Shown here one piece after another: positions 4,688-22,290 of a DNA stretch of 37,254 nucleotides (its first letter is position 1; each line of letters begins with the position of its first letter). Made by a program: the position numbers and the translations under genes. The stretch spans positions 1 through 37,254 of the forward strand of contig JANYHE010000144.1 in assembly GCA_025359215.1 (NCBI GenBank), read 5' to 3'. The DNA is from Hyphomicrobiales bacterium. GTDB lineage: Bacteria > Pseudomonadota > Alphaproteobacteria > Rhizobiales > Aestuariivirgaceae. Below the pieces are notes generated by a model. The model was not told where the DNA came from. It was given only the letters and a program-made list of their open reading frames with translations, and did no database searches.

Positions 4688-7138
4688 ATGTCGTTAGCAG
4701 CGAAGTCCAGTGCAGAAGCGGTGAAAGCCGAAATTATTTCAAAGCTCACTTATGCAATTGGCAAAGACCCTGTTGTCGCCAAGCGGCATGATTGGCTGGC
4801 CGCAACTATTTTAGCTTTACGCGATCATATTATCGACCGTTGGATGGAATCGACCCGCGAGGCCTATAAGGCTAATTCCAAGCGCGTCTATTATCTGTCA
4901 CTCGAATTTCTGATCGGCCGTTTGCTGCGCGATGCGTTGAGCAACCTTGACCTCACCACCAGTTTTGAAAATGCCCTCGAAAGCTTGGGCGTCGATCTGG
5001 CGCTCACTGAGGCTTTGGAGCCTGACGCGGCTTTGGGAAATGGCGGGCTTGGTCGCTTGGCCGCCTGCTTTATGGAAAGCATGGCCAGCCTTGGCATTCC
5101 GGCTTATGGCTATGGCATACGCTATAAGCACGGCCTGTTCCGTCAGCTCATTAAAGATGGTTGGCAAATGGAAGTGCCGGAAGATTGGCTTGAAAACGGC
5201 AATCCATGGGAATTTGCCCGCCGCGAATCCGCTTATAAAATTTCATTTGGCGGCTCCATTTTTGCCGACAAGCCCAATGATGTGACATCAAAAGCAACGT
5301 GGCACCCTGATGAAGTGATGTTGGCCATGGCCTTTGACACACCCATGGTGGGTTGGCGTGGCAAGCGCGTGAACACCTTGCGCCTCTGGTCGGCACGCTC
5401 CATTGATCCGATACAACTGGAAGCTTTTAACCAAGGCGACTTTACCGGCGCATTGTCAAATGCAAACCGCGCTGAAATTCTCACACGTGTGCTCTATCCG
5501 TCAGACTCAAATCCGGCTGGTCAAGAGTTGCGCCTGCGCCAAGAATATTTTTTCACCTCAGCTTCTTTGCAGGATATTATCCGCCGCCATTTGCAGCAAT
5601 ATCCTGATGTGTTGAACTTGGCTGATAAAGCGGCTGTGCAAATCAACGACTCGCATCCGGCCATCGCCGTAGCGGAACTCATGCGCCTCTTGGTTGATGA
5701 GCATCACGTGGTGTGGAGCAAGGCTTGGGAAATCACCCAAGCGGTGATTGCCTATACCAATCACACGCTTTTGTCTGAGGCTCTGGAAAGCTGGCCGCTG
5801 CAATTGTTTGAACGCATGTTGCCGCGTCATTTGCAAATTATCTATGCCATCAATGATCTGATTATCGTGCGCGCCCGCAATGTGGTGGATTCGAACGATG
5901 AGTTTGTGGCCTCAGTCTCCTTGATTGACGAGCATGGTTCTAAGCGTGTGCGCATGGCGCAACTGGCTTTTGCCGGGGCCCACAGTGTGAATGGTGTTTC
6001 TGCCTTGCACACCGAGTTGATGAAAAAGAATGTGTTTAAAAATTTGAACACATTGTTCCCCGGCCGCATTAACAACAAAACCAATGGCATCACACCGCGC
6101 CGCTGGTTGCGCGGTGCCAATCCGCAGCTTTCGGCGTTGTTAACAGAGGCAGCAGGTGTTGAGTCGCTGGATAATGCTGAATTATTGGTCAATGCGGCAA
6201 GCCATGTCAATGATAAAAACTTCATCGCAAAGTTTTCAAAAATCAAACTGCAAAATAAAATGGAACTGGCGAATTTGATCCAAGCCCGCATGGAAATCAA
6301 AGTTGACCCAAGTGCCATGTTTGACGTGCAGATCAAGCGCATTCACGAATATAAGCGTCAACTTTTAAATATTCTGGAAACCATTGATCTCTATTTGAAG
6401 ATCAAAGCTGAACCCAATCGTGACTGGTCGCCACGTGTTAAAATTTTTGCAGGCAAAGCGGCAGCAAGCTATGCCCAAGCCAAGCTGATCATTAAACTGA
6501 TCAACGAAGTGGCCAATGTTGTAAACAACGATCCAGACATTAAGGGCCAGCTCAAGGTCGTTTTCATTCCAAATTATAATGTAAGCTTGGCTGAGGTGAT
6601 TGTTCCGGCGACTGACCTGTCCGAGCAAATTTCAACGGCGGGCATGGAAGCCTCCGGCACCGGCAATATGAAGTTTGCCCTGAATGGCGCGTTGACTGTT
6701 GGCACCTTGGACGGCGCCAATGTTGAAATGCGTGACCATGTGGGGGCAGAACATTTCTTCATCTTCGGCCTCACTGCTCAAGAAGTGGAAGACCGCCGTG
6801 CCGCAGGAGTGGATGGTCACGGCGTGGTTGAAGCATCGCCGCGCTTGCGCGTTGTCTTAAAGGCTTTGGCGCAAGGCCTGTTTTCAGCAGGTGACACCGG
6901 ACTTTACCAGCCGATCATCGGCTCAATTTATAACGGTGACTATTTCATGATCGGTTCTGATTTCAACTCTTATGTGGCGGCCCAGAAAAATCTTTCTAAC
7001 ATTTGGAAGCAACAACAGGACTGGACGAAGCACGCAATTCAGAATAGCGTTCACATGGGCTGGTTCTCTTCTGATCGCACAATCAAGGAATATGCCCGCG
7101 AAATTTGGAACGTACCGGTCAACTGGCCGGCAAACTGA
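4688..7138 (+). CDS. glgP: Glycogen/starch phosphorylase
   Basis: A GT35 phosphorylase that uses phosphate to release glucose-1-phosphate from alpha-1,4-glucan ends. It is 816 residues, normal for the family. The N-terminal block includes YYLSLEFLIGRLL and the glycine-rich DAALGNGGLGRLAACF. The C-terminal PLP site is ASGTGNMKFALNG with lysine at about residue 662, followed by GTLDGANVEM. It is the first gene of a six-gene glycogen operon and is followed by glgB after 13 bp. Its product feeds pgm, encoded downstream. The start ATG has AAAGG upstream. Confidence 0.97.
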   Translation: MSLAAKSSAEAVKAEIISKLTYAIGKDPVVAKRHDWLAATILALRDHIIDRWMESTREAYKANSKRVYYLSLEFLIGRLLRDALSNLDLTTSFENALESLGVDLALTEALEPDAALGNGGLGRLAACFMESMASLGIPAYGYGIRYKHGLFRQLIKDGWQMEVPEDWLENGNPWEFARRESAYKISFGGSIFADKPNDVTSKATWHPDEVMLAMAFDTPMVGWRGKRVNTLRLWSARSIDPIQLEAFNQGDFTGALSNANRAEILTRVLYPSDSNPAGQELRLRQEYFFTSASLQDIIRRHLQQYPDVLNLADKAAVQINDSHPAIAVAELMRLLVDEHHVVWSKAWEITQAVIAYTNHTLLSEALESWPLQLFERMLPRHLQIIYAINDLIIVRARNVVDSNDEFVASVSLIDEHGSKRVRMAQLAFAGAHSVNGVSALHTELMKKNVFKNLNTLFPGRINNKTNGITPRRWLRGANPQLSALLTEAAGVESLDNAELLVNAASHVNDKNFIAKFSKIKLQNKMELANLIQARMEIKVDPSAMFDVQIKRIHEYKRQLLNILETIDLYLKIKAEPNRDWSPRVKIFAGKAAASYAQAKLIIKLINEVANVVNNDPDIKGQLKVVFIPNYNVSLAEVIVPATDLSEQISTAGMEASGTGNMKFALNGALTVGTLDGANVEMRDHVGAEHFFIFGLTAQEVEDRRAAGVDGHGVVEASPRLRVVLKALAQGLFSAGDTGLYQPIIGSIYNGDYFMIGSDFNSYVAAQKNLSNIWKQQQDWTKHAIQNSVHMGWFSSDRTIKEYAREIWNVPVNWPAN

Positions 7139-7151
7139 AAGTTAAACGGAA

Positions 7152-9344
7152 ATGGCCGAACCGAAGTGGAAAACCAGCGGCCCTGAAATCGAAGCCATTG
7201 TAAATGGCAGGCATGCAGACCCATTCAAAGTGCTGGGCCTGCATCCCGTGGGCAAAAGCTGGGTGGCGCGCGCGTTTATACCGGGCGCTGAAACCGTAAC
7301 TGCACAAAGCCTCGATGGGAAGAATTTAGGCGAGTTGACCATGGTCAACAAAGCCGGATTTTTTGAAGGCAAAGTAAAAGCCAGCGCGCAGCAGGTTTTG
7401 CAATTTGTCTGCGCCAATGCCAAAGCCACTTGGACAGTTTCAGATGCCTATTCGATTGGCCCTGTCCTTGGCCCTCAAGATGATTACTTTATGGCAGAGG
7501 GCAATCACCTTCGCCTTTACGATAAGTTGGGCGCACATCCTTTGAAAATGGATGGCGTAGAAGGTGTTCACTTCGCAGTGTGGGCCCCCAATGCTGAGCG
7601 CGTTTCTGTGGTGGGCGATTTTAATCTGTGGGATGGCCGCCGCCACGTGATGCGCAAACGCATGGATGTGGGCGTATGGGAAATTTTCGTGCCCGATGCG
7701 CATGTGGGCCAAGGCTATAAATTTGAATTGATCGACAAGCAGGGCGGTCTGCATTTAAAGTCTGACCCCTATGGTTTTGCAGCAGAGCTTCGGCCAAACA
7801 CGGCGTCCAAAGTCACCCGCACGGATGGCTTCACATGGTCCGATGAAAATTATCTAAAAGCCCGTGTCGCTCCCGATAAGCGCCGCGTGCCCATGAGTAT
7901 TTATGAAGTTCATCTGGGCTCATGGCGCAAGAATGATGGCGATGCTTTTCTCAGTTACGATGAATTGTCCGACCAGCTGATTTCTTATGTGGTTGATATG
8001 GGTTTTACCCACCTCGAACTTTTACCCGTTAGCGAATTTCCTTATGATCCTTCATGGGGCTATCAGCCAGTGGGCCTGTTTGCACCCACCTCGCGCTTTG
8101 GCGATCCTGCCGGTTTTGCACGGTTCGTTGACAAAGCCCATGCCGCAAATATTGGCATTATTCTCGATTGGGTTCCGGCCCATTTCCCAGTTGATGCGCA
8201 TGGCCTTTCAAAATTTGATGGCACAGCACTTTATGAACACGAAGATCCGCGCCAAGGTTTCCACCCTGATTGGAACACGGCGATTTATAATTTCGGCCGC
8301 AAGGAAGTGCAAAGTTTCCTGCTCAATAATGCGCTGTTCTGGCTGGAGCGTTATCACCTTGATGGCTTGCGCGTTGATGCTGTGGCCTCGATGCTTTATT
8401 TGGATTACAGCCGCAAAGAAGGTGAGTGGATTCCCAATCAATATGGTGGCCGCGAAAACTTAGAAGCCATCGCATTCCTGCAACGCATGAACCACGAAAC
8501 TTATGGCCAGCACCCGGGCATTGTGACGATTGCCGAAGAATCCACCGCGTTTCCCGGTGTGTCCAAACCCACCAGCACGGGTGGTTTAGGTTTTGGTTTC
8601 AAATGGAACATGGGCTTCATGCACGACACGCTGCAATATATGCAGCGCGAAGGGGTTTATCGTAAACACCACCACAATGATCTCACCTTCGGCCTGCTCT
8701 ATGCCTTCACCGAAAACTTTGTGCTGCCTTTGTCTCATGATGAAGTGGTGCATGGCAAAGGCTCGCTGCTGGCTAAAATGTCCGGCGATGATTGGCAAAA
8801 ATTTGCAACCTTGCGCGCTTACTTAAGTTTCATGTGGGCCTATCCCGGCAAAAAGCTTTTGTTCATGGGTCAAGAAATGGCACCTTGGGGCGAGTGGAAC
8901 CACACGCAAAGCCTTGATTGGAACTTGCTGCAACACGCCCCCCACAAGGGCATGCAATCCCTCATCCGCGATCTTAACCATCTCTATCGCAACAATCCCG
9001 CACTCTATGCCCGCGATTGCGAGCCTGAAGGCTATGAATGGCTGATTGGTGATGACGCTGAAAATTCAGTCTTCGCTTGGGCAAGACATGCAGGTGATGG
9101 AAAAAAACCCGTTGCGGTGGTTTCGAATTTCACATCAGTAGTGCGCGAAAATTATATTCTGCCCTTGCCAAAGTCTGGAATCTGGGTTGAAGTCTTTAAT
9201 AGTGACGCAGAAAACTATTGGGGCACAGGCAAAGGCAACCAAGGAAAAATAGAAGCAAAGAACGGGCCGTCGCACGGAAAGCCAGCCTCAGCCCTCATAA
9301 CTTTGCCACCGTTAGCCACAGTGTATTTTGTGGCTGAAGAATAA
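7152..9344 (+). CDS. glgB: 1,4-alpha-glucan branching enzyme
   Basis: A GH13 branching enzyme that makes alpha-1,6 branch points in glycogen. The protein has 730 residues with N-terminal branching-enzyme/CBM48-type regions, for example VHFAVWAPNAERVSVVGDFN. The GH13 barrel follows from about residue 245. Catalytic motifs are clear: DWVPAHFP, GLRVDAVASMLYLDYS with the nucleophile Asp at about 409, IAEESTAFPGV with the acid/base Glu at about 462, and LSHDEVVHG. The 53-residue spacing between Asp and Glu matches E. coli GlgB. It lies between glgP and glgC on the same strand. Confidence 0.97.
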   Translation: MAEPKWKTSGPEIEAIVNGRHADPFKVLGLHPVGKSWVARAFIPGAETVTAQSLDGKNLGELTMVNKAGFFEGKVKASAQQVLQFVCANAKATWTVSDAYSIGPVLGPQDDYFMAEGNHLRLYDKLGAHPLKMDGVEGVHFAVWAPNAERVSVVGDFNLWDGRRHVMRKRMDVGVWEIFVPDAHVGQGYKFELIDKQGGLHLKSDPYGFAAELRPNTASKVTRTDGFTWSDENYLKARVAPDKRRVPMSIYEVHLGSWRKNDGDAFLSYDELSDQLISYVVDMGFTHLELLPVSEFPYDPSWGYQPVGLFAPTSRFGDPAGFARFVDKAHAANIGIILDWVPAHFPVDAHGLSKFDGTALYEHEDPRQGFHPDWNTAIYNFGRKEVQSFLLNNALFWLERYHLDGLRVDAVASMLYLDYSRKEGEWIPNQYGGRENLEAIAFLQRMNHETYGQHPGIVTIAEESTAFPGVSKPTSTGGLGFGFKWNMGFMHDTLQYMQREGVYRKHHHNDLTFGLLYAFTENFVLPLSHDEVVHGKGSLLAKMSGDDWQKFATLRAYLSFMWAYPGKKLLFMGQEMAPWGEWNHTQSLDWNLLQHAPHKGMQSLIRDLNHLYRNNPALYARDCEPEGYEWLIGDDAENSVFAWARHAGDGKKPVAVVSNFTSVVRENYILPLPKSGIWVEVFNSDAENYWGTGKGNQGKIEAKNGPSHGKPASALITLPPLATVYFVAEE

Positions 9345-9378
9345 ATAAGAAACGAATGCTGGATTGGGAGTTACAGCA

Positions 9379-10640
9379 ATGAGTGAAAAAAAGAGAACTG
9401 CACCACTGGCGCGTGATGCCATGGCTTATGTGTTAGCCGGCGGCCGTGGCAGCCGGTTGATGGAGCTGACAGACAGGCGGGCCAAACCCGCTGTGCCCTT
9501 TGGCGGTAAATCGCGCATTATCGATTTCGCATTATCGAATGCAATGAATTCAGGCATCCGCCGCATTGGCGTTGCCACGCAATATAAAGCCCACAGCTTG
9601 ATCCGCCACTTGACCAGAGGCTGGAACTTCTTCCGCACAGAGCGCAATGAAAGCTTTGATATTCTCCCCGCCAGCCAGCGTGTGTCAGAAGACCAATGGT
9701 ATGCAGGAACCGCTGATGCGGTTTATCAAAACTTGGACATCATCGAAACATACAATGTGAAATACAGTGTGATCCTTGCAGGCGATCATATCTATAAGCA
9801 AGATTATGAATTGATGTTGCAACAGCACGTGGATTCAGGGGCTGATGTCACCATTGGTTGCCTCGAAGTGCCCCGCATGGAAGCCACAGGTTTTGGCGTC
9901 ATGCATGTCGATAAGAACGACACCATCATCGAGTTTATTGAAAAGCCAGCAGATCCTCCGGGCATTCCTGATAATCCAGAATTGGCTTTGGCCTCAATGG
10001 GCATCTATGTTTTCGAAACAAAATTCTTGGCCGGGCTTCTGCGCCGCGACGCCGCCACGAAGGGTTCCAGCCGCGATTTCGGCAAAGACATCATTCCCTA
10101 TGTTGTGAAAAACGGCAAAGCCGTTGCTCATCGCTTCACCAAATCGTGCGTGCGTTCGCCGCTCGAAAAGCAAGCTTACTGGCGTGATGCAGGCACCATT
10201 GATGCCTATTGGGAAGCCAATATCGATCTCACTGATACGCTTCCTTCGCTTGATCTTTATGACAAGGATTGGCCGATCTGGACTTACGGCGAAGTAACAC
10301 CACCGGCCAAGTTTGTGCATGATCTTGAGGGTCGCCGTGGCAGTGCCATCGCCTCGCTTGTCTCCGGCGGTTGCATCGTGTCGGGTGCTTCGATCAAGCG
10401 GGCATTGTTGTTCACCAATGTGCGAGTGAATTCATTTTCAAATTTGGAAGATGCTGTTGTTTTGCCGAATGTGGAAATTGGCCGCAATGCCAGCCTCACC
10501 AAAGTGATCATTGATTCCAGCGTGCGCATTCCTGAAGGCCTTGTGGTGGGTGAAGACCCGGTCTTAGATGGCCAAAGGTTCCGCCGTTCAGAAAAAGGTG
10601 TTTGCCTGATCACCCAAGCCATGATCGACCGTCTGGTCTG

Positions 10641-10641
<1 letters not shown>
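9379..10641 (+). CDS. glgC: Glucose-1-phosphate adenylyltransferase (ADP-glucose pyrophosphorylase)
   Basis: Makes ADP-glucose from ATP and glucose-1-phosphate, the committed step of glycogen synthesis. The nucleotide-binding loop [11 protein letters not shown] is near residue 20, followed by [20 protein letters not shown]. The middle has [12 protein letters not shown] and [11 protein letters not shown], and the C-terminus is a left-handed helix-type domain. I chose the ATG at 9379, giving 420 residues, because GGGAG at 9366-9370 sits 8 nt before it. The in-frame TTG at 9364 would place that ribosome site inside the gene. The stop overlaps the glgA ATG by one base. Confidence 0.97.
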
Positions 10642-15556
<4,915 letters not shown>

Positions 15557-15557
<1 letters not shown>

Positions 15558-17540: not shown

Positions 17541-18427
17541 ACGCCGTCCCGTGAAATACGTGTGCCCACACCATGCGGGGTGAGCAATTCCAAAAGCACA
17601 GAATGCGGCACCCGGCCATCCAAAATAATCACACCTTCAACACCGGCATGCACCACAGTTGCGGCACTTTCAATTTTTGGAATCATGCCCGCTGTGATGG
17701 TGCCGTCATCAACCAGGCCTTGCACATCGCCCAGTTTCAATTCGCTAATCAGCTCTTTGTTTTTATCAAGCACGCCCGCCACATCCGTCAGCAGCAAAAG
17801 CCGTTTTGCATTCAGCGCCACGGCAATGGCACCTGCCGCAGTGTCGGCGTTCACGTTATAAGTGTCGCCATCCCAACCTACACCAATAGGCGCAATCACC
17901 GGAATGGCATCGCTCTTCATGATGGTTTGTAAAATTTCAATGTTCACCCGCGCAGGTTCCCCCACTTGGCCAAAATCAATAGTGGTCACTTCGCCCGTCA
18001 TAGGGTCTGTTTTCTTTTTGGTGTAGCGCTCTGCAATCAGCAAACTGCCATCTTTGCCTGAAACACCAACAGCCCGCCCACCCGCTTGCTGAATGGAAGC
18101 GACAATAGATTTATTGATGGATCCGGAAAGAACCATCTCTACCACTTCCATGGTCTCAGGATCGGTGACGCGCAGTCCATCGCGAAACACTGGCTTTACG
18201 GCCAGCTTATCCAACATTTTGTTAATCTGTGGCCCACCGCCATGAACCACGACTGGATTGAGCCCACACACCTTTAACATCACCATGTCACGGGCAAATT
18301 GCTGCGCCAATTTCTTGTCGACCATGGCATGGCCGCCAAACTTCACCACAATGATCTGATCATCATAGCGCTGTAAAAACGGCAAAGCTTCCGAGAGAAT
18401 TCGCGCCGTTTCAGAAATGTCAGTCAT
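17537..18427 (-). CDS. argB: Acetylglutamate kinase
   Basis: Phosphorylates N-acetylglutamate in arginine synthesis; in many bacteria it is the arginine-inhibited step. At 296 residues it matches the longer, arginine-sensitive class, although sensitivity itself is not proven here. The phosphate-binding [11 protein letters not shown] has Lys at about 29, and [13 protein letters not shown] follows. The C-terminal half has [20 protein letters not shown] and GMIPKIESA. It is the first gene of a set with the HAD nucleotidase and dapD, linked by 4-bp overlaps. Confidence 0.97.
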
Positions 18428-18524: not shown

Positions 18525-19763
18525 TCAATCCACCCATTCGCCATTGCGCATCAAAGGCTCTGCGCTGCCATCCTTGAACACGCCTTCCACATTCAGCTCA
18601 CCAGAGCCGATCATCCAATCTACATGGATGAGCGATGTATTCATGCCTCGCGCGAGTTTTTCTTCGGCGTTCAAAATGCTCGTATCTTTCATGTTCTGCG
18701 AATAAGCTTGGCCCACCGCGATGTGTGAGGCTGCATTTTCATCATAAAGCGTTTCATTGAAAACAATGCCCGAGGCTGAGATGGGCGATGATTGCGGCAC
18801 TAAGGCCACTTCACCCAAACGCGCTGCACCATCATCAGTTTCAATCATCTTGCGAAATACATCTTGCCCGGTGGTGGCGCTACCTTCAACAATACGGCCC
18901 TTTTCAAAGCGCACCTGAATGCCATCAATGAAAGTGCCTTGATAGGACAGGGGCTTCGTTGACAGCACAACGCCATCCACCCGCTCGCGATGTGGCATGG
19001 TGAACACTTCTTCGGAAGGGATATTGGGGTTGCACAAAATGCCATTTTTGGCGACGGATGCACCACCGCACCAAATGTGATCATCCACCAAACCTAAGGT
19101 GAAATCGGTGCCGGGGCCCTTATAGCGAAGTGCAGAAAATCGTTTAGCATTCAATGTGGCCGTGCGCGCATGAAGCGCCTTTGTGTGCAGTTCCCAAGCG
19201 CCAACCGGATCTGGCAAGTCGGCCCTTGTGCATTTGAAAATCGCAGTCCACAAAGCGGCCAGCGCTTCGTTCTCCGACAAATTTGGAAACACTGATTTGG
19301 CATGTGAAGGCGTTGCCGCCGAGATCACACACCAGTTGGTGGCAAAGCTGGTGATCAATTCCACAACAGGCCTATAAGCTGTTGAGCGCGCGCGATTGGC
19401 GCGGGAAACTTTGTCAATATCTTGGCCGGACAGAAGCGATGGGTCTTCGCCGATGACTGCCAGCCTTGCGCAATTCCCATCACGAAACGCCTCAGCCATG
19501 CCGTCGAAAAGCCAAGCAGGTGCAGCATCAAAAGCAGCAGCATTGCCATCGGTATACCGCATCAAAGCGGTTTTCTCGTCATTGTACAAAGTGGTGACCA
19601 ATGAAGCGCCAACCTTGTAAGCATGATGCGTAATCCGCCGCACCAGATCAATCGCCTCAATCGGCGCTGAGATTAAAACCTGTTGGCCCACCCGCACATT
19701 GAGGCCAGACCGAACTGTGAGTTCAGCATATTTATCAAGCAGGATTTCGTGGCTTGCAGTCAT
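18525..19763 (-). CDS. M29-family aminopeptidase
   Basis: A metallo-aminopeptidase of the thermophilic (AmpS/AmpT-like) M29 family, expected to be cytoplasmic and to remove N-terminal residues with divalent metal. Family features include YAELTVRSGLNVRVGQQVLI at the N-terminus, then IPSEEVFTMPHRERVDGVV and NASHIAVGQAY-like sequence. The C-terminal MIGSGELNVEGVFKDG is also typical. I chose the ATG at 19763, giving 412 residues, because it follows the fabI stop by one base and the family begins here. The upstream in-frame ATG at 19829 lies within fabI. Coupling to fabI translation is likely. Confidence 0.92.
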   Translation of the reverse strand: MTASHEILLDKYAELTVRSGLNVRVGQQVLISAPIEAIDLVRRITHHAYKVGASLVTTLYNDEKTALMRYTDGNAAAFDAAPAWLFDGMAEAFRDGNCARLAVIGEDPSLLSGQDIDKVSRANRARSTAYRPVVELITSFATNWCVISAATPSHAKSVFPNLSENEALAALWTAIFKCTRADLPDPVGAWELHTKALHARTATLNAKRFSALRYKGPGTDFTLGLVDDHIWCGGASVAKNGILCNPNIPSEEVFTMPHRERVDGVVLSTKPLSYQGTFIDGIQVRFEKGRIVEGSATTGQDVFRKMIETDDGAARLGEVALVPQSSPISASGIVFNETLYDENAASHIAVGQAYSQNMKDTSILNAEEKLARGMNTSLIHVDWMIGSGELNVEGVFKDGSAEPLMRNGEWVD

Positions 19764-19764
19764 T

Positions 19765-20550
19765 TTATAATTCCGCAGGTTGAGGCATTGAAATAATATT
19801 ATAGCCAGAGTCCACATAATGAATTTCACCTGTCACACCACCTGAAAGAGGTGACAACAGATAAAGCCCAGCACCACCCACTTCTTCCAGCGTGATCGTG
19901 CGTCTGAGGGGGGCGTGGCTGTTTTGATAGTTGAACATCGCTCTGGCATCGCCAATGCCAGCACCCGCCAAAGTGCGCATGGGGCCTGCGGAGATTGCAT
20001 TCACGCGCACCCCTTGCGGGCCATAATCGCCTGCAAGATATCGCACCGAGGATTCCAATGCTGCTTTCGCCACACCCATTACGTTATAGTTGGGCATCAC
20101 GCGGGTGGAGCCACCATAAGTGAGCGTGATGATTGAGCCACCATCCGGCATCAACGCTGCGGCGCGTTTCGTGATCTCTGTGAAAGAGAAGCACGAGATG
20201 ATCATCGTCTTGGTGAAATTCTCGCGGGATGTTTCAGCGTATTTTCCCTTGAGTTCATTCTTGTCTGAAAACGCAATGGCGTGAACCAGAAAATCAATCG
20301 TGCCCCATTTTTCTTTCAGCACCGCAAACACATGATCAACGGTTGCAACATCTTCCACATCGCAGGGGATCAAGAGATTCGAGCCCACGCTTTCCGCCAG
20401 CGGGGCCACGCGTTTTCCAAAGGCTTCGCCTTAGGTGAAAGCCAATTCTGCGCCGTGCTTGGCAAGCTCTGTGGCAATGCCCCAAGCAATCGAGTGATCA
20501 TTCGCAACACCCATCACCAGGCCGCGTTTGCCGTGCATCAATCCATTCAT
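19765..20550 (-). pseudogene. fabI: Enoyl-ACP reductase (NADH), interrupted by an in-frame stop
   Basis: FabI reduces enoyl-ACP in the last step of fatty-acid elongation. Reading from the ATG at 20550, the N-terminus [20 protein letters not shown] is classic, including the NADH-binding loop and SIAWG. Codon 40 is TAA at 20431-20433, in the context AELAFT-stop-GEAFGKR, where relatives read FTYQGEA. Two codons (Tyr-Gln) appear replaced by one stop, as a 3-nt deletion would do. After it the frame continues intact to 19765 with the catalytic YX6K (YNVMGVAK) and SGYNIISM end. The downstream piece alone (GTG at 20409, 214 residues) lacks the nucleotide-binding loop. It lies 8 nt after fabB. Confidence 0.85.
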
Positions 20551-20558
20551 GTTCGTGA

Positions 20559-21773
20559 TTATCCGTTATAGCGTTGCATAATAAGGGTGGCGTTGGTGCC
20601 GCCAAAGCCGAAGCTGTTGGACATCACGGTATCAATCTTGGCATTGTCTAAGCGCTTGCGCAGAATCGGCACATCGGCAAATTCTGGATCAAGCTCTTGA
20701 ATATTAGCACTCTCCGCCATGAAATTATTTTTCATCATCAGAAGGCAATAGATCGCTTCCTGAACACCGGTTGCACCGAGTGAGTGGCCCGTCAGAGATT
20801 TTGTCGATGAGATATGTGGAATGTCATTGCCAAACACTTCTCGGATAGCTTGAATTTCCTTTTGGTCACCCACCGGTGTCGATGTGCCGTGCGGGTTGAT
20901 ATAATCAATCTTGCCCTTCACAGTGTTCATCGCATTGCGCATGCAGCGGATCGCACCTTCGCCTGAAGGGGCCACCATGTCATAGCCATCGGACGTTGCA
21001 CCATAGCCCACGATCTCAGCATAAATTTTTGCACCGCGGGCTTTGGCGTGCTCGAGTTCTTCGAGAACTAATACACCAGCGCCGCCAGCGATCACAAAAC
21101 CATCACGGCTTTTATCGTAAGCTCTGGAAGCAACCGATGGCGTGTCGTTATATTTCGAAGACATGGCCCCCATGGCATCGAACAACACGGAAAGGGTCCA
21201 ATCCAATTCTTCGCCGCCACCTGCAAACATCACATCTTGCTTGCCCCACTGAATCATTTCCGTGGCATTGCCAATGCAATGGGCCGACGTGGCGCAGGCT
21301 GAGGATATGGTATAATTCACACCGCGAATGCCAAACGGCGTTGCAAGCACGGCAGAATGCGCTGAAGACATGGAAGGCGGCACTGCAAAGGGGCCAACGC
21401 GCTTGGGGCCTTTCTCACGTGTCGTATCAGCAGCGGCCACAATGGTTTTAGTGGATGGACCGCCAGAACCCATGATGATTCCGGTGCGCTCGTTCTTCAC
21501 ATCTCTTTCTTCGAGGCCGGAATCAGCGATGGCTTGTTGCATTGAAGCATAATTCCAAATGCCACCATCGCCCATAAAGCGGCGCGCCCGCCTGTCTACC
21601 AATTCAGAATCAAAGTTCGGTTGACCATGCACTTGGCTGCGGAATCCGAGCTCGGCATATTTTTCAGCCCGCACAATGCCAGATTTGGCAGCGCGCAAAC
21701 TGGCGGTGACGTCTTCAGGATTATTGCCAATGCAAGAGACAATGCCCATTCCGGTAATAACAACACGACGCAT
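20559..21773 (-). CDS. fabB: Beta-ketoacyl-ACP synthase I
   Basis: A condensing enzyme of type II fatty-acid synthesis, needed with FabA to make unsaturated acyl chains. The Cys-His-His triad is visible: Cys at about 160 in [11 protein letters not shown], His at about 295 in NPHGTSTP, and His at about 330 in [11 protein letters not shown], with Lys at about 325. Length is 404 residues, as in E. coli FabB. It lies 10 bp after fabA and is followed by fabI after 8 nt, so the three form an operon. FabF is the alternative, but [15 protein letters not shown] and the fabA neighbour point to FabB. Confidence 0.96.
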
Positions 21774-21783
21774 ATTGAACCTC

Positions 21784-22290
21784 TTAAGCTTGGAACAGAC
21801 CGACCTTCATGTCGGTCACGTTATAAATCACTTCGCCGTCTGCTTTCATAACGCCATTGGCCACCGCCAGTTTCAGCTTGCGCAAGATGAGGCGCGTGAC
21901 TTCAACTTCATATGTCACTTTTTTTACAGCGGGGGTGACCATGCCGGAAAATTTAACTTCCCCCACACCCAATGCGCGGCCACGGCCGGGTTCACCCAGC
22001 CAGCCTAGAAAGAATCCGGTGAGTTGCCACAAAGCATCAAGGCCCAAGCAGCCGGGCATCACCGGGTCACCTTGGAAATGGCACGGGAAAAACCAGAGAT
22101 CAGGCTTGATATCAAATTCAGCGACAATCTTGCCAAGGCCAGCAGCGCCGCCTTTTTCTTCTACGTGAGTGATGCGATCAAACATCAGCATAGGCGGCAA
22201 TGGCAATTGCGCATTGCCGGGGCCAAACAATTCGCCACGCCCACAGGCAATCAAATCATCATAAAGAAAGCTGGATTTCCGTTCGCTCAT
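21784..22290 (-). CDS. fabA: 3-hydroxydecanoyl-ACP dehydratase/isomerase
   Basis: Dehydrates 3-hydroxydecanoyl-ACP and isomerises trans-2 to cis-3-decenoyl-ACP, the branch point of anaerobic unsaturated fatty-acid synthesis. The hot-dog fold motif [20 protein letters not shown] is present with active-site His at about 71 and Asp at about 85, as in E. coli. Length is 168 residues. It is the first gene of fabA-fabB-fabI and is divergent from irr across 119 bp. Confidence 0.97.

Follow-up and report, generated by a model that had tools for sequence, protein, structure and literature searches.

A fabI gene lying next to fabA and fabB was interrupted by a single in-frame stop codon in the 37,254-nucleotide stretch of DNA that we analyzed (hereafter the window). 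The explanation that we favor on balance is that this linked fabI is a very young null allele and that its loss is tolerated through a second FabI encoded on another contig, C72, of the same genome. In this explanation, a 3-nt in-frame deletion inside a Tyr-Gln codon pair would have created TAA, and translation would, by the genetic code, terminate after 39 residues. The later frame would yield no working enoyl reductase, since the N-terminal portion of the NADH-binding fold is missing from it. The cell would then rely on the paralogous FabI of C72, which we found to be present with an open frame and which is predicted to do the buffering. The host probably belongs to Aestuariivirga, a genus of environmental Alphaproteobacteria in the order Hyphomicrobiales, and the closest named match was Aestuariivirga litoralis (85% identity over 212 residues). 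We compared its draft genome (G000; 3.02 Mb, 148 contigs, stated completeness 99.2%) with 36 other genomes of the genus. The interrupted gene and its immediate neighbors were as follows:

19765 to 20550, minus strand: fabI, linked to fabA and fabB, interrupted; within NCBIfam, the portion past the stop matches NF005078 (PRK06505) best.
20431 to 20433, minus strand: in-frame TAA at codon 40, replacing the Tyr-Gln pair of relatives, identified by translation and comparison with relatives.
19765 to 20409, minus strand: longest open frame past the fabI stop, with a GTG start and 214 residues; Tyr-x6-Lys is kept and the N-terminal cofactor-binding part is absent.
20559 to 21773, minus strand: fabB, beta-ketoacyl-ACP synthase I, intact, adjoining fabI upstream.
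21784 to 22290, minus strand: fabA, 3-hydroxyacyl-ACP dehydratase/isomerase, intact.
18525 to 19763, minus strand: M29 aminopeptidase-type gene (PF02073), intact, with its first ATG 1 nt past the fabI stop.

A preliminary description of this DNA had reported a stop codon within an otherwise intact fabI frame, and we confirmed this. From the ATG at 20550, the frame meets TAA at 20433-20431, reads AFT*GEAFGKR around that codon, and is otherwise open to a terminal TAA at 19767-19765. Both halves match the single Pfam model PF13561, at profile positions 1-26 and 33-236 and with scores of 27.6 and 248.2 bits (each above the cut-off of 27), so we interpret them as one interrupted gene. The strength of the profile match (E = 1.2e-84 over 236 positions, with one stop inside) rules out a chance open reading frame. 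The NCBIfam scan covered the post-stop fragment only, which scored 402.2 bits against NF005078 and thus fell below the cut-off of 446, which is set for full-length proteins. The translation contains YNVMGVAK, which has the Tyr-x6-Lys spacing that we take to be the catalytic motif of FabI enoyl-ACP reductases, while the N-terminal cofactor-binding part is broken by the TAA after residue 39. In sequence, length, fabA and fabB neighbors, and Tyr-x6-Lys motif, the gene resembles the NADH-dependent enoyl-ACP reductase FabI of the NF005078 (PRK06505) type, and its nearest solved relative by sequence is PDB 5koi.

The window copy differs from linked fabI of the genus in its TAA at codon 40. All 31 of the relatives whose sequence covers the site had two sense codons there, Tyr-Gln in 29 and His-Gln in two, compared with one codon in the window. 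This count comprises 29 aligned loci (27 with TYQ and two with THQ) together with L140 and L141, both of which have TYQ. In the three nearest relatives, the pair is TAT plus either CAA or CAG, and the equivalent site of the C72 paralogue is also TYQ. The earlier proposal that one codon stands in for Tyr-Gln therefore held in every relative across the site, and the one-codon deficit supports its suggestion of a 3-nt in-frame change at this pair. TAA arises most simply if 3 nt within the pair were lost in frame, although loss of a codon combined with a point change is also possible.

Linked fabI was at least partly visible in 32 of the 36 relatives. We looked for natural losses in the eight genomes lacking a full linked match, and none was shown. 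Linked fabI with TYQ was present in G009, G015, and G029 (where a contig end cuts the gene), and the start of the gene was present at a contig end in G026. In G011, G019, and G021, the contig terminates inside fabB, and for G016, the search gave no linked fabB. As no relative shows a real loss, dispensability of the linked copy draws no support from natural losses.

Several comparisons suggest that the break is recent. Leaving out the stop codon, the window fabI departed from only one of 134 columns that were otherwise invariant among 28 relatives (an alignment that omits L118, where a contig end cuts the gene, as well as L140 and L141), whereas the relatives themselves departed from zero to eight invariant columns. 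Amino acid changes relative to outgroups, counted for the window gene versus each of its three nearest relatives, were 6:6, 8:9, and 7:7. This matches the earlier reading that fabI shows no other decay, as its protein has changed at the rate of its nearest relatives. Pairwise dN/dS between the window fabI and these three relatives was 0.080-0.087, compared with 0.025-0.030 within the three and 0.025-0.089 among six relatives (two pairs were not computable). The lower values within the three count against the favored explanation, although dS approached saturation for most of the pairs. Our comparison included no conspecific genome, as none was found, and it is coarse, with even the nearest relative sharing only 80% identity over fabI at the DNA level. 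Within that resolution, these sequence patterns indicate that fabI was constrained until very recently.

The preliminary description had listed a second FabI among the conditions that could make such a stop tolerable, and had proposed searching the genome for another enoyl reductase. An intact FabI is indeed encoded on C72 (L001), with no stop in its frame, a score of 505.8 bits against NF006019 (cut-off 452), and an alignment to a solved FabI that covers 268 of the 273 residues. Loss of the linked fabI would be tolerable given this copy. Across the genus, a second FabI-like match apart from the linked copy was found in all 37 genomes, including this one (partial in G029), with 57-62% identity to the window fragment. 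The view of fabI as a normally essential gene is accordingly weakened for the linked copy. The profile PF12241 had no match in this genome, but it also had none in any of 14 control genomes, so its silence says nothing about FabV.

Duplicated FabI has been described in related bacteria. A passage of PMC8024396 reports fabI1 and fabI2 in A. tumefaciens and a similar distribution among related bacteria, and PMC12838394, a paper on Agrobacterium, reports that neither fabI homologue was mutated in its two triclosan-adapted strains. Our own results have no bearing on triclosan. Among the papers listed by our literature searches, none addressed the loss of a FabI copy in the genus. The C72 copy is of the same type as the second FabI of Hyphomicrobiales (NF006019, PRK08159), and the window genome differs from the two-FabI state described for relatives in that one of its two copies is broken. 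This combination of one disabling change, no other visible decay, and an intact paralogue is what is generally expected of a young pseudogene, with fixation only presumed here. The intact second copy probably covers for the broken fabI, which would make the latter either a redundant gene inactivated in an ordinary way or a defect of the draft assembly, and neither the null allele nor an artefact is a surprising reading. If real, the interruption would be a natural test, in Hyphomicrobiales, of whether a cell with a second FabI can dispense with the one encoded in the fabA-fabB cluster. Either way, the interest of the interrupted fabI is modest.

The alternative that we consider a genuine but less probable possibility is that living cells do not carry the stop as a fixed allele and that it reflects either a consensus or assembly error or a minor-strain allele captured in the draft, which consists of many contigs. 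Three other genes that appeared to be interrupted elsewhere in the assembly bear on it:

L177, 107 to 2866 (C16:20107-22866 of the same genome): acnA, aconitase, otherwise intact, with TAA at C16:20629, identified by a codon-pair screen and comparison with relatives.
L173, 17676 to 18797, minus strand: alpha/beta hydrolase (PAF-AH-like), with TAA at 17981 (C138:57981).
L286, 11788 to 12642 (C67 of the same genome), minus strand: TPR-repeat protein that looks interrupted by TAG, with the stop at 12174.

The aconitase speaks for an artefact or minority allele. Its TAA occupies a site that is Gln in all 29 relatives looked at (28 plus L184), and its two parts match PF00330 at positions 9-93 and 97-463. 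The gene is apparently single-copy, as LeuC was the one further PF00330 match in the genome, and losing aconitase seems implausible for a free-living organism whose genome is otherwise complete. A nonsense codon in this assembly is therefore not necessarily fixed in the living population, and an artefact or minority allele becomes likelier than fabI alone would suggest. If the fabI stop is not real, single nonsense codons in this assembly, that of aconitase included, are no basis for gene-loss calls. Against such an origin, interruptions that we judged clear were few (four in 1.27 Mb, picked by eye from the screen lists), and relatives support three of the four (fabI, aconitase, and hydrolase). 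When 826 kb of the assembly was compared by tblastn, no frameshift appeared over 233 relative open reading frames with matches, shadow frames included, which gives little sign of abundant indel errors. In addition, sequencing seldom produces an error such as a clean 3-nt deletion, which differs from the usual single-base indel, and short-read assembly as a rule creates no k-mers that are missing from the reads, although the method used here may differ. The same tblastn comparison returned 38 stop rows, seven of them from aconitase and the rest mostly antisense or shadow frames by eye; the reverse comparison, against sequence of the relatives, returned 28 stop rows and one frameshift.

The remaining alternatives keep a FabI product despite the stop, and we regard each as very improbable. 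Readthrough, by natural ochre suppression or by TAA sometimes being read as Gln, would fit the sites that TAA occupies (Gln in aconitase, Tyr-Gln in fabI), as well as the otherwise unspoilt state of both genes. However, TAA is an ordinary terminator in this genome, ending 90 of 213 open reading frames of at least 300 codons in a first 437-kb sample; the third TAA, in the hydrolase, falls at a Glu or Asp site in the four relatives (of seven loci) where the motif was found; and a read-through fabI would still be one residue short. We found neither an altered release factor nor a suppressor tRNA. Both RF1 and RF2 are intact, and the 37 tRNA genes that we found, Gln TTG and CTG among them, all lack a stop anticodon, making recoding unlikely. 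No tRNA-Tyr or tRNA-Ile was among these 37, and genes in assembly gaps would be missed. It is scarcely to be expected, then, that the lineage reads some TAA codons as sense through a suppressor outside the assembly or context-dependent readthrough, in which case fabI and the single-copy aconitase would both still be produced despite their in-frame stops. Restart of translation at the GTG at 20409, the eighth codon past the stop, seems similarly remote as a source of a useful protein. The frame from this codon is open and retains the Tyr-x6-Lys pair, but its alignment with solved FabI chains begins only near residue 50 of the shorter ones. Judged by the FabI fold, the 214-residue fragment would thus lack the first strand, the first helix, and the cofactor loop, and without this N-terminal cofactor part the restart product is most likely inactive.

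The additional interruptions came from a codon-pair screen that replaced a first stop screen with a sensitivity of 7-15%. The codon-pair screen recovered 88% of mock breaks, measured in its own training genes rather than in held-out ones, and covered 1.27 of the 3.02 Mb of the assembly in steps. Rates were similar in this genome and the control G020 (26 matches in 437 kb versus 24 in 400 kb); after a frame filter, they were 38 in 826 kb versus 17 in 436 kb. The 1.27 Mb gave 56 matches in all, many of which were adjoining genes in one frame, and the final part of these matches was also judged by eye alone. By eye, the matches in G020 included no clear interruption. For the hydrolase, the frame was open over 350-406 residues in seven relative loci, one of them a weak match. 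The TPR gene is the least sure of the four interruptions and could be two adjoining genes; both halves match TPR family models, all below cut-off. A candidate at L177 5282 on the minus strand was dropped, as neither side has a family match, and the candidates at L164 11049 and at L171 9939 resemble adjoining genes.

Elsewhere in the window, the early fabI stop might lower translation of the M29 gene by polarity, and by eye a similar reading start downstream of fabI is seen in L105 and L115. Positions 4688-15557 hold what looks by eye like a run of glycogen-metabolism-type genes, including phosphorylase, branching enzyme, and GlgC-, GlgA-, phosphoglucomutase-, and GlgX-like genes.
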